Positions 3,688 through 49,356 of a stretch of 64,000 nucleotides of DNA are shown in pieces. The number at the start of each line of letters is the position of its first letter. Within the stretch, counting starts at the first letter, position 1. The position numbers and the translations under genes are program-made. Source of the stretch: Candidatus Nitrospira kreftii (GTDB lineage Bacteria > Nitrospirota > Nitrospiria > Nitrospirales > Nitrospiraceae). The notes under the pieces were generated by a model. It ran no database searches. It was given only the letters and a program-made list of their open reading frames with translations, and had not been told where the DNA came from. The stretch covers positions 2,170,001 through 2,234,000 of the forward strand of contig CP047423.1 in NCBI GenBank assembly GCA_014058405.1. Direction: 5' to 3'.

Positions 3688-6600
3688 TCATGCCGTGTTC
3701 TTCTGTTGTTTGGGTTCGAACCAAGGAAATATGCTGGGCAGTACCAGCAGCGTAAGGAAAGTCGAGGTGACCAAGCCGCCGATGACGACGATGGCCAACG
3801 GCCGCGTTACCTCCGACCCGACGCCATGGGCCAGCGCGAGGGGAATGAGCCCCAATAGTCCAGTGAGCGCCGTCATGAGGACCGGCCTCAATCTCATCAG
3901 ACAGGCGTTGACGATAGCGTCCTGTCCTTCTTCCCCGTCCTCTCGAAGTTTGAGAATGTACGAGACCAGCACGATCCCATTGAGCACCGCGACGCCGAAC
4001 AGGTTGATGAATCCGACCGACGCGGGCACGCTGAGATATTCTCCGGAGATCCACAAGGCAACGATACCGCCGATAAGCGCAAAGGGAAGATTCAGAATGA
4101 TCAATAACGCATAGCGTACAGAGTTAAACGAGGAGAAAAGGAGAAAAAAGATCAACGCCACCGTGATCGGAACCACAATTTTCAACCGCGCCATGGCCCG
4201 TTCCATGTTCTTAAACGACCCACCCCACATAATCTCATAGTCCGGCGGGACGTTCAGTTGCTTGTCCATCTTGTGTTTCGCTTCTTTCACGACGCTTTCA
4301 ATATCTCTTCCCATGGTGTTGAAACCGACATAGATGCGTCGCTTCAGGCCTTCGCGGCTGACCATCGCCGGGCCTTCCCGAGCCTCAACCAAGGCGATGT
4401 CCCCTAAAGGAACCAGTGCGCCGGTCATGGTCTTCAATAGCAATTGTTTGATGTGACCGACGCTATCGCGGAACGGCTTTGGAAATCGCAGGATGAGGTC
4501 GAACCGTCGGTTTCCCTCGTACACGGTCGTCACGGGTTCGGCACCGATGGCCATTCTGATGATATCGTGGATATCCGATACGTTGATGCCATGTCGTGCA
4601 ATCCGTTCACGATCCACCGTGACGGTCACATAGGATTGTCCGAACAACTGTTCGACGCGGATATCCTTTACCCCCTTCGTCGAGGCCAGAATACTCCGAA
4701 TCGTTTCGGCGGCTGACCGGAGAATTTGAAGATCCTCACCCAGGACCTTGACCACCGTATCAGTCCGCACTCCGCTGAGTACCTCATCCATTCGTTGTTG
4801 AATCGGTTGGCTGAGCAGATAGGATGCGCCGGTCACTTGGTTGATGCGTTGCCTGACAGCATCGTCGATTTCAGCCTTCGTATCGCCCGTCGTCCACTCC
4901 TCAATCGGCTTGAGTGCGAGGACAGGATCACTGGCATTCGGCTCTTGAGGTTCGTTGCCGGTCTCGGAACGCCCGATTTTCGAGACGATAAACTTGGTTT
5001 CGGGCACTTCAAGCGCTGCCCGCTGCATCTGTTTTTCAATTTCGATCGATTCCTCCAACGAAATGCTGGGATGACGGATGGTCTGGGGAGTGATGGCGAG
5101 CTCATTCATGTTCGGGATGAATTCGCCTCCCAAGAATGGAAAGACCGCCAGGCTTCCGGCCAAGAGCACCAGGGACACAATCAACACCACGACGCGATGC
5201 GCGATCGACCAGGTCAATACCGGTTTGTATCCTTTCTTAATCCACCGGACGGCAAACGTATCCTCCCCGGATCCTTTGCGCATCGTAAGAGAGGCCAGTA
5301 CCGGGGATAGGAAAAGCGAAAGAGTCAGTGAACACATCAAGGCGATCATGATGGTATAGGCCAGCGGACTGAACATTTTTCCTTCCACTCCCTGGAGTGA
5401 TAACAGCGGTAAAAATACCACGATGATGATTGTGGTCCCAAAGATCACCGGTCGAGCGACTTCTGCGGCCGCCTCTTTGACGAGCTGATTCAGGTCGGAG
5501 TCGCGTGCCTGTCCCGACAGCATGCGAAAAATGTTCTCCACCATCACGATCGACCCATCCACCATCATGCCGATGGCGATGGCTAATCCGCCTAGCGACA
5601 TGAGGTTAGCGGTGATCCCGACCTGTTTCATGATGAGAAGTGTAGCGAACGGAGCGGTGATCAGCGTCGCCGTCACGATCAGGGCGCTGCGCACGTTACC
5701 CAAAAACAGAAACAGAACCAGGACGACGAGACCGATACCTTCCAGTAATGCGAGGTAGACGGTGTTGAGCGCTTTGGAAATGAGCTCGGCCCTATCATAG
5801 AATGGTTTGATCGTGAGATTGCCAGGCAGCACTCCTTTACGATGGATTTCGTCCACAACGCGCTTGATGCCTTCGACGGCATCGCGTGCGTTGCCGCCCC
5901 GCAGCAACATGACGATACCGCTGACGACTTCCCGCTTCCCGTTGTACACCACGGCACCATGGCGAACGGCCTCTCCAAATCGCACCTCTGCGACATCTCG
6001 GACATAGACTGGGGTACCATCAAACTCCCGCAGCACGATGTTTTCAATGTCGCGGAGCGATTGGATCAGCCCGAGTCCTCGAATGACGGACTTTTCACCA
6101 TGTTTCTCAAGGATGTTCCCGCCCGCATTGGCATTGTTCTGTTCGATGGTATGGAAGACGTCACGAACCGCAAGATGGTATTTCCGAAGCAGGTCAGGGT
6201 TGAGCATCACTTGGTATTGCTTGACAAAGCCACCATGTGACTTGACATCCACAACGTCCGGTACCTTCAACAGCAGGGGTCGGAGCACCCAATCTTGCAA
6301 TGTACGGCGGTCTCTGAGTTCTTCGACGGTTACGGAATGATCGGCATCATCATCGTGTGGTCCTTGGAGAAAGTACTGGTATACCTCTCCGATGGCGGTA
6401 CTGTTCGGCACGATCTCGGAGAAGGACCCTGGCGGAAGCATGCGTTGCGCGCTCTGAATCTGCGTATTGACGACTTGTCGGGCCAGATAGATGTCAATGG
6501 CATCGTCGAAAACGACCGTCATGAGGGAGAGTCCGACCTTGGAGCGTGACCGAATTTCCCGCAGACCCGGAGAACCGGCCAGTTGCAGCTCCAAAGGAAA

Positions 6601-9381: not shown

Positions 9382-9933
9382 CTACCAATAATAGGGATAG
9401 CCATAGTAGCCACGATACCCCCAGCCATAGGGATAGCCGTAGCCATAATACGGAGCATATCCACCTTTCACCCGGTCCCAATCCCAGACCGTGACATGCT
9501 TGAGGGCCAGTTGAGGAACCTGTTGTTGCGCCTCATCGATGGTAATGGTTGTGGATCCCGCCACTTCTCCCACAACCGTGATGCGTTTGTTGTCATCCTC
9601 GAATATGGCCGGGTCAGACACCTGGTCGCCCCGGTCGATGACCACGAATCGTCCCTTCGACTCAGTTTCACGACCCGTAGGCATCAGATCTCCGGACAAC
9701 GGGATCTGCAGCACTTCGATCCGTGTACCGTCTTCGACACGTTTCGCCGACAGCACTTTGCCACCCGCCAGCATCAGTTTTCCTTTCTGTGCCTGCGGAT
9801 TATTTTTGATATCGGAATATCGCAGATCACGATCGACTTTCCCTTCGAGCCTATCAGGGATCACATCCGCCCGATTGCATCCATTGACGAACAAAAATGC
9901 CACCGACATCATCGTCATAATCAACACATTCAT
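9382..9933 (-). CDS. Slp-family outer membrane lipoprotein with Tyr/Gly-rich tail
   Basis: 183 aa. A lipoprotein signal ends at VNGC (Cys19). The core matches the Slp/YeaY family: LMLAGGKVLSAKRVEDGTRIEVLQIPL, GRFVVIDRGDQVSDPAIF and KRITVVGEVAG are in the family order. Slp of E. coli is a starvation- and acid-inducible outer membrane lipoprotein. The last 25 residues are almost entirely Tyr, Gly, Pro and Trp, a low-complexity tail seen in many envelope proteins. A good ribosome binding site (GAAAGGAAGG) precedes the ATG. It is the first well-supported gene of the row leading into the efflux operon and may be co-expressed with it. Confidence 0.82.
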   Translation of the reverse strand: MNVLIMTMMSVAFLFVNGCNRADVIPDRLEGKVDRDLRYSDIKNNPQAQKGKLMLAGGKVLSAKRVEDGTRIEVLQIPLSGDLMPTGRETESKGRFVVIDRGDQVSDPAIFEDDNKRITVVGEVAGSTTITIDEAQQQVPQLALKHVTVWDWDRVKGGYAPYYGYGYPYGWGYRGYYGYPYYW

Positions 9934-44397: not shown

Positions 44398-44627
44398 CTC
44401 CACGGGACTCGGTTGAGGCCTGGGACCATGTCACTGTTTCATGCCCCTCACATGCCGGTTGTCCGCTGGCTGATTGAGCCTCCGTGCGCCGCATCGCAAT
44501 CGTTGCCGGGCAGTACGATCAAGAGCACGGGCCCCTGGTTGGACACGAGACGTACTGACACCGCTTTTCCGCCGAATCTTGATGGTCCCTGAAATCCCTC
44601 CGTCGCCGATTTTCGAGCGCGTTCGAC

Positions 44628-45455
44628 TCATTGATCCGGCGTTCGACCTGTGGCCACACCTTGTGGAATTTGTAATCCCGCCGCTTGCGACAGCTTCATA
44701 ATGGCATGCATCATATGCTCGGTGGCATCGGTGGTCTGTTTCTGCTGTCCATGTTCAATGGCGTCCCCCAACGCATAGACTCCTTCATTGAGCCGTTCAT
44801 TATGCCCATGGCGTTGCGCCTGCTTCGCCAAATCGAGAGATGTCTTGGCGTGTTTGACCAACGCGTCGGCTTTGCCTTGTGTCCCCGCGGATTTTGCTTC
44901 CATCGCATGGTGGATCGCTTCACGCACATCATTCGTGAATTCAGCCTGATCCTCTCCCTTCATCTTCTGACTTCCTCCGGCCGATGGAGAGCGCTTCGCC
45001 GCTTGTATGACATTCGGATCCAACTCGTAGAATTGATAGATCACGAGAGCCCACTCGTGATTCGACATATCGGGCCAGTTGTTTTTGTCGAACCCAGGCG
45101 CCTTCTTGAGACGCTCCTCCTTTACATTCAGGATGAAATGCTCCTTATCATCGCTCAGTGCCATCGCGACCCATGGGATGGCAAAATACTTATCACCGAT
45201 GCCCAACCCCCCCCCGAACGAAAGGACGGCATATTCGACAACTCCTCCGTCTCGCCAGTTGATGACCAGGTCCTGAATTTCACCAAGGTCTTTCCCTTCA
45301 GAATTGTGCACCGGTTTGCCGATCAAGCTCGTCGCCTTTGACGCTCCCTCCAGCGCCTGACCCGCATGCGCCATGGCTGTCTGCGCAGCAAAGACCATGG
45401 CCAGCACGGTCAATCCACATCCGAGCACTGTCCGTCGTATCCTTTTCATCTTCAT
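44628..45455 (-). CDS. exported PRC-barrel protein with SmbP-like helical C-terminal domain
   Basis: 275 aa with a strong ribosome binding site (AAGGAG). A Sec signal peptide ends near residue 29 (TAMAHA). Residues 42-110 are a PRC-barrel (SLIGKPVHNSEGKDLGEIQDLVINWRDGG, then YFAIPWVAMALS). From about 180 the protein is helical with periodic His pairs (REAIHHAMEAK, LVKHAKTSLDLAKQAQRHGH, DAIEHGQQ, EHMMHAIMKL). This pattern strongly recalls SmbP, the small periplasmic metal-binding protein of Nitrosomonas europaea, in which EH and HA pairs bind divalent metals. The fusion suggests a periplasmic metal-buffering PRC protein. A paralogous PRC gene lies immediately upstream on the same strand. Confidence 0.8.
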   Translation of the reverse strand: MKMKRIRRTVLGCGLTVLAMVFAAQTAMAHAGQALEGASKATSLIGKPVHNSEGKDLGEIQDLVINWRDGGVVEYAVLSFGGGLGIGDKYFAIPWVAMALSDDKEHFILNVKEERLKKAPGFDKNNWPDMSNHEWALVIYQFYELDPNVIQAAKRSPSAGGSQKMKGEDQAEFTNDVREAIHHAMEAKSAGTQGKADALVKHAKTSLDLAKQAQRHGHNERLNEGVYALGDAIEHGQQKQTTDATEHMMHAIMKLSQAAGLQIPQGVATGRTPDQ

Positions 45456-45513
45456 CAGAGAGATCTCCTTTTCTCGCTAGGGCGATAGGTCGCGACTGTA
45501 GTCACGGGCTTCG

Positions 45514-46092
45514 TCATGATCGCTTTCGAGTGAACTCCGGCTTCATGACATGCCGTATACCGAACGATGTTGCCTCAGACACATTCTCGGCAGATGCGAT
45601 GTTGTCCCCCATCACATCTGCCGATGGTGCGGCCGGCGATCGACCGGCTCCGAGCGCGGCAGCGACTGAACGATCATACAAACGATACACCACCAATTCG
45701 GGGTCCTCGTTGAGTTGGACCCTGTTCATATTCAGCGCGAAGTGATCCTTTCTTGTGTTGGGCGACAACGCCTTACTTGGCACGGCAACATGGGCTTCTC
45801 CTACGTCCCAAAAGCCTCCCATGGACAACACGGCATATTCGGCATACCCGTCGCTGCGCCAGTGGAACACCACGTCACGAATCCGACCGATCACGTTCCC
45901 CTCCCGATCTGTCACGAGTTTGCCGATCATACTTGGTGGAGTCGACATCCTCACCGGCTGATCATCAGCGGAGGCCACGGTTCCCGCCCACATAACCAGG
46001 ACGATCCTCGCCATCACCGTTACCCATCTCACTGGAGCAATCGGTCGTGGTCGACCAGAACTCGCCATAGGATCACCATCACTCGGTGACAT
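45514..46092 (-). CDS. exported PRC-barrel protein
   Basis: 192 aa. Start taken at ATG 46092 because GGGAG stands 8 bases before it; an earlier ATG at 46131 and a later one lack a ribosome binding site. A basic N-terminus then a hydrophobic signal (ARIVLVMWAGTVASA) leads into a PRC-barrel (IGKLVTDREGNVIGRIRDVVFHW, VPSKALSPNTRKDHFALNM). The domain matches that of the neighbour at 44628-45455, without its helical part. The C-terminal 45 residues are low-complexity. Envelope location is inferred from the signal. Confidence 0.72.
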   Translation of the reverse strand: MSPSDGDPMASSGRPRPIAPVRWVTVMARIVLVMWAGTVASADDQPVRMSTPPSMIGKLVTDREGNVIGRIRDVVFHWRSDGYAEYAVLSMGGFWDVGEAHVAVPSKALSPNTRKDHFALNMNRVQLNEDPELVVYRLYDRSVAAALGAGRSPAAPSADVMGDNIASAENVSEATSFGIRHVMKPEFTRKRS

Positions 46093-46168
46093 TTCCCGCG
46101 CTCCCGCTGCCTCCCCAGGTGACGACTGCATACAGATCTAAGCGATACGTTGCAAAACATAGGCCTCT

Positions 46169-46387
46169 TTATCGATCCCGATCTCGCTTGGCTTTGCCGC
46201 TCTGCAAATCCTGAACAGCCATGCCAAAGGCACGTATTGATAGTGCAAGAACACGGGGAACCTGCGCGGACAAGCTGTCTAGTTTGAGACAGGTCTTCCA
46301 CTGGTACAGAGGCAATTGCCGCCCGACGAGTAAGGTCACACCCGAGAGTCCTGCCGCCAAGGGAATGCCCCAGTACCATCGCGTCAT
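46169..46387 (-). CDS. small single-pass membrane protein
   Basis: 72 aa. It begins MTRWYWGIPLAAGLSGVTLLVGRQLPLYQWKT as a predicted transmembrane helix, and the start resembles small uncharacterised membrane proteins with a K-R-W-Y-W-G start (DUF6893-like). The rest is basic (ending KAKRDRDR). The upstream bases show no good ribosome binding site, and the two competing ORFs on this strand lack any protein-like features. The DUF assignment is from memory and uncertain. Confidence 0.45.
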   Translation of the reverse strand: MTRWYWGIPLAAGLSGVTLLVGRQLPLYQWKTCLKLDSLSAQVPRVLALSIRAFGMAVQDLQSGKAKRDRDR

Positions 46388-46443
46388 GGGTTGATGTACA
46401 TGTGCCCAATACCTTTCTAAATTTCATAGGAGGACTTCGTGAC

Positions 46444-46983
46444 ATGACTAAACCGAAACATACACATGTTGATCCGAACAATGCTGACCACGTCATTCGG
46501 CAGGACTACGAAGGGGAAGACGTTCAGCAGGAAGGGGCTTTTCCTGCAGACACACTAGCCTCTGTCTCCACTGCTGATCCACAACCGTCTGACGCAACAC
46601 TGTACGGCGGCGATATCGACGCCGCCCAGCATCAGACAGATGCAGGCGAGGAAGCGGTGGGTGGTTCGAGCCCCACGCCCGATCAGGACGTGGTTCAAGA
46701 GTTAGGGGATGCCGTGGGGATCACATATGAGGACAATGAGCCTCTTCGGTTCGGCGATAAAGTGGCAGATCGCGATACCCAGCGATGGGAACTGAACGCT
46801 GCTTCTTCCGAAGGCTATCAAGAACGACTGCGCGAACTGTCAGGGAACGCCGATTCGCCTGCAGAGCAGGCTCCACAGAAGATCAAACAACCGACACGCG
46901 CACGAAAGGGCAGCAAAAGCGAATCGCCCGCAGGCCGTCGCACCGGATTCCGTGCCCGCAAGGCACCCAAGAACAAGCGCTGA
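46444..46983 (+). CDS. DUF6335-like acidic protein with basic tail
   Basis: 179 aa. The ATG at 46444 is preceded by AGGAGG (46428-46433); the longer frame from 46402 has none. The core ATLYGGDIDAAQHQTDAGEEAVGGS, PTPDQDVVQELGDAVGITYED and DTQRWELNAASSE is the pattern of DUF6335, a soluble family of unknown function common in cyanobacteria and Nitrospira. The C-terminal 40 residues are Arg/Lys-rich (RARKGSKSESPAGRRTGF...), giving a charge-split protein that could bind nucleic acid. The family name is recalled, not checked. Confidence 0.7.
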   Translation: MTKPKHTHVDPNNADHVIRQDYEGEDVQQEGAFPADTLASVSTADPQPSDATLYGGDIDAAQHQTDAGEEAVGGSSPTPDQDVVQELGDAVGITYEDNEPLRFGDKVADRDTQRWELNAASSEGYQERLRELSGNADSPAEQAPQKIKQPTRARKGSKSESPAGRRTGFRARKAPKNKR

Positions 46984-48609: not shown

Positions 48610-49356
48610 CTAGACCGCCTCGTTCCCGTAGTGTGTGAAGAGCCGCACTTCATAGTCGGGGGTAATGAGTTGTGCTGGGTCATACGGCGGTGCCGATTGG
48701 ATAGCGTGCCGAGGCAGCGACATTGAGACGGATCGAGTGTCCCAATCGATCTGCCTGACCCGACCGGCCGGCACCAAGACCTTTTTCCCCGGCAACCAAT
48801 TTCTCGTGTCGACCTCGACATACCGTACGATCCAATCCTGATCGTCAAAGATCAGATCCTCGATATGACCGATTTCTCTGTCCGTCGCATGGACCCCGTA
48901 GCCGGTCACTTCCGCGCTGCTGCGAAGATGAGATTGCTCGGGGGATTTCGATACGAGGGGCTGCTCCATACTCATCATGGGCGTCTCAGGATAGGGCAAC
49001 GGGTTTCCCCATACCGTTTGGCCAGGTTGCCAATAGGGCGCCCAACCAAAATGCCTAAAATAGGCCTCTTCATGCCGGCGTGAGATGGGCTTCGCTTTGT
49101 CGATCGATGGAGCCTGTTCGATCTGGTCCTTTCGCAAGTTGATCCGCATAGAGGCATCACGATCATCAATGCCTTCGATCGCAATCGGCGCAACCAGGAC
49201 ATCGCGTCCCAGAAGCCACCCTCCGGTCCTCATAACCATGTAGCGAACCACCCAGGTTTGATCATCGAAATAGAACTCTTGCACGGTTCCCAGTTGACCG
49301 TCGTCGCCATGAAGAATCAATGTGAGAGTGTCTCGCACACGTCTGAATTGCTTCAT
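48610..49356 (-). CDS. cytoplasmic protein with two PRC-barrel domains
   Basis: 248 aa from the ATG at 49356 (a TTG at 49374 is an alternative). No signal peptide, unlike the two other PRC proteins nearby. The first PRC-barrel is at about residues 5-80 (TLTLILHGDDGQLGTVQEFYFDDQTWVVRYMVM) and the second at about 150-230 (VTGYGVHATDREIGHIEDLIFDDQDWIVRYVEVDTRNWLPGKKVLV). The duplicated FDDQ-W-VRY elements show internal duplication. The linker has FRHFGWAPYWQPGQ. PRC domains mediate protein or RNA interactions; function unknown. Confidence 0.8.
   Translation of the reverse strand: MKQFRRVRDTLTLILHGDDGQLGTVQEFYFDDQTWVVRYMVMRTGGWLLGRDVLVAPIAIEGIDDRDASMRINLRKDQIEQAPSIDKAKPISRRHEEAYFRHFGWAPYWQPGQTVWGNPLPYPETPMMSMEQPLVSKSPEQSHLRSSAEVTGYGVHATDREIGHIEDLIFDDQDWIVRYVEVDTRNWLPGKKVLVPAGRVRQIDWDTRSVSMSLPRHAIQSAPPYDPAQLITPDYEVRLFTHYGNEAV

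Follow-up and report, generated by a model that had tools for sequence, protein, structure and literature searches.

Organization of the fusion gene and its product

The window analysed here is a 64,000-nucleotide stretch of contig CP047423.1 of Candidatus Nitrospira kreftii, whose genome is one contig of 4.13 Mb. On its reverse strand lies a gene for a two-domain protein, in which an N-terminal signal region is followed by a PRC-barrel domain, a linker and a C-terminal SMBP domain, and a second PRC-barrel gene stands upstream (Table 1). No well-placed lipobox was recognized by eye in the signal region, as the motif VLGC (aa 10-13) stands too near the N-terminus for one and is missing in the orthologues, in an alignment that covers three of the five intact fusions. 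The signal region evolves fast, with Ka/Ks values of 0.41-0.47 against the orthologues. The protein is predicted to be exported to the periplasm, and the envelope location suggested for it in an earlier note on this DNA agrees with the export signal as read by eye.

Table 1. Features of the fusion gene and its surroundings (window coordinates)
Feature	Position	Strand	Basis
PRC-SMBP fusion gene, 275 aa	44628..45455	(-)	ORF, ATG start, Pfam, orthologues, Ka/Ks
AAGGAG, ribosome-binding-like, 9 nt 5' of ATG	45465..45470	(-)	sequence
Putative Sec-type signal peptide, aa 1-29 (MKMKRIRR, hydrophobic core, AMA before H30)	45369..45455	(-)	by eye
PRC-barrel domain, aa 38-115	45111..45344	(-)	PF05239 E 6e-13; Foldseek 3htr_A E 1.6e-7
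PRC C-terminal extension and low-confidence linker, aa 116-172	44940..45110	(-)	pLDDT, Ka/Ks
SMBP domain, aa 178-257	44685..44924	(-)	PF16785 E 4.6e-15; model; 3u8v Z 17.7
H183 codon, retained SmbP His column (His in 60/60 canonical rows)	44907..44909	(-)	alignment
H202 codon, retained SmbP His column (60/60 canonical rows)	44850..44852	(-)	alignment
H235 codon, retained SmbP His column (60/60 canonical rows)	44751..44753	(-)	alignment
H247 codon, retained SmbP His column (40/60 canonical rows)	44715..44717	(-)	alignment
H250 codon, His of PRC-fused members only	44706..44708	(-)	alignment
Upstream PRC-barrel gene, 205 aa	45514..46131	(-)	PF05239 24.8 bits

Identification of the two domains

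The results of the Pfam search placed both domains above their curated cut-offs, with 49.1 bits against 21.2 for the PRC-barrel (PF05239) and 56.2 bits against 29 for SMBP (PF16785). NCBIfam gave no match above a cut-off. Searching the PDB sequences with phmmer returned the PRC-barrel protein 3htr (E 1.5e-10) and 3u8v, the SmbP of Nitrosomonas europaea (E 1.2e-8). Scored with a profile made solely from canonical SMBP domains, aa 150-275 gave 63.8 bits, whereas the best of 2000 composition-keeping shuffles reached 9.9 bits and the reversed sequence -2.6 bits. The joining of a PRC-barrel to an SmbP-like domain, which the earlier note had proposed, was thereby confirmed, and similarity to SmbP lies well above the background to which the note had tied the fate of its proposal.

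An AlphaFold model was computed from an alignment of 12 sequences, of which only two besides that of the window cover any part of the SMBP domain. The model comprises a PRC-type barrel, a low-confidence linker (pLDDT <50 at aa 152-164) and four helices (167-192, 196-214, 220-237 and 241-258); its mean pLDDT of 69.8 and pTM of 0.45 give no reliable mutual placement of the two domains. In Foldseek, 3htr_A, 3htr_B and 3u8v_A were the best and the sole matches under E 0.001, and the TM score of 0.69 on the target 3htr_A identified the PRC-barrel fold. VIA-align ranked 3u8v first among the structures compared with the model (Z 17.7, rmsd 1.1, 83/83 residues, 40% identity), followed by a row at Z 14.6, on a scale on which helical bundles without kinship reach Z of about 13. 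The structure prediction thus bore out the SmbP-like four-helix fold in the C-terminal part.

Comparison with the two proteins of known structure delimits what is shared. The fusion resembles N. europaea SmbP in the four-helix fold over the whole domain and in the columns on which its remaining histidines stand; a putative export signal, read by eye, may be a further resemblance. SmbP, however, stands alone as a protein of about 10 kDa, whereas the SMBP part of the fusion is the C-terminal domain of a protein of 275 aa. The Rhodopseudomonas palustris protein of entry 3htr shares the PRC-barrel by fold and sequence, but its chain of 120 residues lacks an SMBP tail and matches aa 44-125 only.

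Loss of most SmbP histidines

To describe the histidine pattern, an alignment was made of N. europaea SmbP, 60 distinct stand-alone SMBP domains (61 loci) and 10 domains that are fusion-type or related, and a column was counted as a His column if 50% or more of the canonical rows have His there. Twelve such columns were obtained, in two sets of six offset by 45 positions, as an internal duplication would give. All 60 canonical rows occupy 10-12 of the 12 columns, and the three canonical SMBPs of the window's genome occupy 11, 12 and 11. The SMBP domain of the fusion retains four (H183, H202, H235 and H247) and lacks the other eight. The same number, 4/12, was counted in the fused domains of G034, G063, G327, G186 and G052 and in the stand-alone protein of G002, and the stand-alone protein of G178 keeps five. 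The earlier note had read periodic His-containing helices like those of SmbP in this region. The EH, HH and HA pairs are indeed there (H182-H183-A184, H202-A203, E234-H235, E246-H247 and H250-A251) and the retained histidines stand on SmbP columns, but the periodicity extends to only 4 of the 12 columns, against 10-12 in 60/60 stand-alone domains. Judged as SmbP proper, the protein has neither the His-rich pattern (4/12) nor the small single-domain build (275 aa, with PRC).

The window's SMBP domain holds eight histidines; the four outside the SmbP columns are not invariant in the subfamily, and H183, H202, H235 and H247 are the sole invariant histidines in an alignment of its seven members (7/7). 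With 35 of 100 columns invariant in that alignment, the invariance of 4/4 SmbP-column histidines corresponds to p 0.013, a value resting on seven related rows. H250 occurs in 6/6 fused rows and in 0/60 canonical rows, and both stand-alone subfamily members have R there. In an up-down-up-down bundle, the heptad register would put H183, H202 and H247 at one level, with H235 a layer away; the four retained histidines may therefore not share one site.

His-poor SMBP relatives occur in the family as well (L186 1520-2344 and L187 1516-1950); those of G067 and G157 hold 2-3 of the 12 columns, and the one of G157 scores 39.8 bits against the cut-off of 29.

Selection on the fusion and its gene neighbourhood

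That this is one conserved gene is indicated by orthologues, about 80% and 68% identical to it, which carry both domains at full length. The Ka/Ks values against G034 were 0.099 (PRC), 0.056 (SMBP) and 0.31 (linker, taken over aa 148-172), and those against G063 were 0.131, 0.073 and 0.27, respectively, the latter being rough since dS is 1.3-2.1 and thus near saturation. Given these low values on the domains and the higher value of the linker, strong purifying selection keeps both domains, and it keeps SMBP more strictly.

The upstream PRC gene and the fusion gene share a strand and are separated by 58 bases, which suggests that the two are possibly co-transcribed. A PRC gene also stands directly upstream of the fusion in G034, G063, G052 and G053. 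In G063, the fusion is followed on its 3' side by another PRC protein gene, with a 4-base overlap, and then by a gene for a Slp-family outer-membrane lipoprotein. Slp-family lipoprotein genes adjoin PRC genes at two sites (L145 3454-4044 and L185 8029-8646), and a third (window 9382-9933) is a neighbour of the window's RND efflux operon. Within 44400-46500, no sigma-70-like promoter was found, and the two terminator-like sites are about as many as in shuffles.

On a larger scale, 7/8 PRC matches of the window's genome fall within 83 kb (genome positions 2162087-2245246). This PRC-rich island, which includes the window positions 45111-45344, 45742-45933, 48745-48894 and 49126-49308, also carries catalase, cytochrome c and DUF6335 genes. 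The window itself holds a long catalase, a cytochrome c, a sensor kinase and the RND efflux operon, which encodes a CusB-type adaptor and lies about 35 kb from the fusion. The surroundings thus form a stress-type neighbourhood, and the neighbours point to no direct function.

Host and distribution of the fusion

Nitrospira with ammonia monooxygenase (AMO) are comammox organisms. The window's genome has one AMO-family gene (PF02461, E 4.5e-101), so that the host is a comammox nitrifier, and the nitrifier host supposed in the earlier note is borne out by a gene of its own. AMO was detected in 61/235 Nitrospirales genomes. Among the seven genomes with an intact or broken fusion it was detected in three and was not found in the other four; a tie of the fusion to comammox was thus considered and not seen.

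Intact fusions were found in 5/235 Nitrospirales genomes, namely the window's own (G000), G034 and G063 of the same genus, and G327 and G186 of another genus of the same family, in which Pfam confirmed both domains. Two genomes (G052 and G053) carry a frame-broken fusion, the break being real or due to assembly, and that of G053 ends at a contig edge. In G051, only about the last 53 fusion residues remain, behind another signal-like start (L150, about 5203-5469, an ORF of about 89 codons that includes the last half of the SMBP domain), as if a deletion had occurred inside the PRC gene pair. Two tail-less PRC orthologues group with the fusion PRCs. That of G030 (55% identity over about aa 3-168) is cut short by a stop codon within the linker, beyond which the sequence looks like decayed linker, and has probably lost its SMBP domain, whereas that of G056 (59-60% over about aa 3-159) runs into unrelated sequence. 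Having been lost or broken several times, the fusion is dispensable. The fused SMBP subfamily also has stand-alone members in G178 and G002, which share 56% identity and the same four invariant histidines with the window's domain, but in which Pfam found no PRC domain.

Among 395 genomes drawn across the phylum, intact members of this subfamily scored at least 155 bits, the G051 remnant 90 and the next SMBP 73.6, so the subfamily is sharply bounded within the draw. The SMBP family as a whole was detected in 78/79 genomes of the window's genus, with up to eight copies, and in 90/245 genomes in the phylum draw. A short-peptide-pattern scan of contigs, which reaches close relatives only, found the full-length fusion only in Nitrospira. 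On plasmids, none of the 165 matching records covers 80% of the fusion protein. In Nitrosomonadaceae, the family of Nitrosospira, SMBP occurs in at least 104/125 genomes and no fusion was seen among the matches listed; the longest frames among those matches are tandem SMBP-SMBP proteins of 218 and 213 aa in G585 and G597 (L221 and L222).

SMBP was met in two other contexts. The same genus has another kind of SMBP fusion, 308-326 aa in total, which consists of a signal, a His-rich SMBP domain and about 200 residues resembling an outer-membrane beta-barrel (L133-L140 and L151, in G020, G016, G014, G009, G078, G075, G059, G031 and G036). The four members checked hold 10-11 His, and in the one member scanned the barrel part matched PF13505 at E 0.0028, below the cut-off. 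In addition, a stand-alone SMBP gene adjoins a gene named by eye as a two-domain rhodanese-like sulfurtransferase (L119, L141, L142 and L152, in G000, G054, G008 and G018).

Origin of the fusion

The PRC tree was built from 58 of 69 domains after 11 near-identical Janthinobacterium rows had been dropped, a smaller tree from 31 of the 69, and the SMBP tree from rows that included 26 of the 60 canonical domains and N. europaea SmbP. The PRC group to be tested was defined by fusion state before tree building. The results showed that the PRC halves of G327 and G186 group with unfused PRC proteins of a type that also occurs elsewhere in the window's own genome (96/94), apart from the PRC of the other fusions; the G327 PRC is 57-60% identical to this unfused type, versus 51% to the window's PRC over aa 38-147. 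AU tests rejected a single clade of all fusion PRC halves (p 1.7e-4, seven rows), of the fusion PRCs with the tail-less orthologues (p 1.1e-4, nine rows), and of the fusion PRCs in the smaller tree (p 7e-7, five rows). The reading that the whole fusion arose once and has kept its first PRC half was rejected accordingly.

In the SMBP tree, the fused domains together with those of G002 and G178 and two His-poor rows split from canonical SMBP, N. europaea SmbP included, at 100/98, and the narrower set without the His-poor rows received 87/78. For the fused SMBPs as one clade, p was 0.505, a value that gives no decision either way. With PRC halves of two lineages and SMBP halves of one subfamily, the fusion would have been made twice, or made once and followed by replacement of the PRC half; the trees fit both. 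That two PRC lineages came to be joined to one SMBP subfamily suggests that the pairing is useful.

Functional interpretation

PMC7137794 describes SmbP as a periplasmic protein with Ni(II), Cu(II), Zn(II) and Fe(III) as its ligands. PMC6284046 reports, for a study of salinity, that the level of SmbP in N. europaea was 2.2 times higher, efflux proteins being higher as well, and the letters SMBP in PMC7283456 are a soil phosphorus term. The PRC-barrel and SMBP are each known; no description of their fusion or of a His-reduced SMBP subfamily was found in the open-access library searched; the statement of the earlier note that it knew of no such fusion has held there.

The retention of four of the 12 SmbP histidines, all of them invariant, is less in keeping with a high-capacity buffer than with a single fixed metal site, or a few of them, or with a domain whose role is mainly structural. 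We tentatively favour, at somewhat less than even confidence, low-capacity binding of one or a few divalent ions by the SMBP domain. PRC is a docking module in other PRC proteins, and in the exported two-domain protein the PRC-barrel would dock to a partner in the envelope. The four-helix SMBP domain would have given up most of its metal-loading surface while keeping H183, H202, H235 and H247 as a few fixed ligands, with H250 as a possible further ligand in the fused forms. Copper would be the first guess for the ion, given the comammox host. Occupancy by metal would then steady or switch the protein or its docking, instead of serving bulk metal uptake. In this scheme, export, PRC docking, metal binding at the retained histidines, the identity of the metal and the switching are the steps that we infer.

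The invariance of the four histidine columns in 7/7 subfamily rows and the addition of H250 in 6/6 fused rows count against the view that the SMBP domain is now mainly structural, a stable bundle that spaces or binds other protein parts and whose histidines are remnants without a physiological metal role. This account nevertheless deserves serious, if lesser, credence, as 8/12 His columns are absent and the relatives in G067 and G157, with 2-3/12 and one of them at 39.8 bits, indicate that the fold persists without most histidines. The function offered in the earlier note, a high-capacity metal buffer of the envelope in which SmbP is tethered by the PRC domain, is weakened by the occupation of 4/12 columns against 10-12 in 60/60 stand-alone domains, and we regard it as unlikely despite the clear SmbP homology (Pfam, phmmer and 3u8v), the periplasmic metal binding reported for SmbP (PMC7137794) and the RND efflux operon with its CusB-type adaptor in the same window. 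The three canonical SMBPs of the genome would already act as buffers, and the unrelated SMBP-outer-membrane-barrel fusion keeps its 10-11 His, so that fusion as such costs no histidines. A chance resemblance, a frame artefact or a mis-assembly of two genes might be read into the two frame-broken relatives (G052 and G053), but was rejected as having hardly any probability in view of the shuffles (9.9 vs 63.8 bits), the five intact full-length members in five genomes of two genera and the Ka/Ks values, which stay well under 1 to either side of the junction.

Carrying the favoured low-capacity reading further, the fusions might represent recurrent metal-gated envelope adaptors, in which a His-reduced SmbP subfamily was captured twice in Nitrospiraceae, by different PRC-barrel lineages, and turned from a metal sponge into a low-capacity sensor that steers PRC docking; we put this forward as a conjecture of low probability. 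The PRC-SMBP protein bears on envelope metal handling in nitrifiers, organisms that rely on copper enzymes, and its subfamily on whether the SMBP family has regulators besides buffers. A four-His subfamily that keeps the fold, coupled to a PRC adaptor, offers a way to learn which histidines of SmbP matter.
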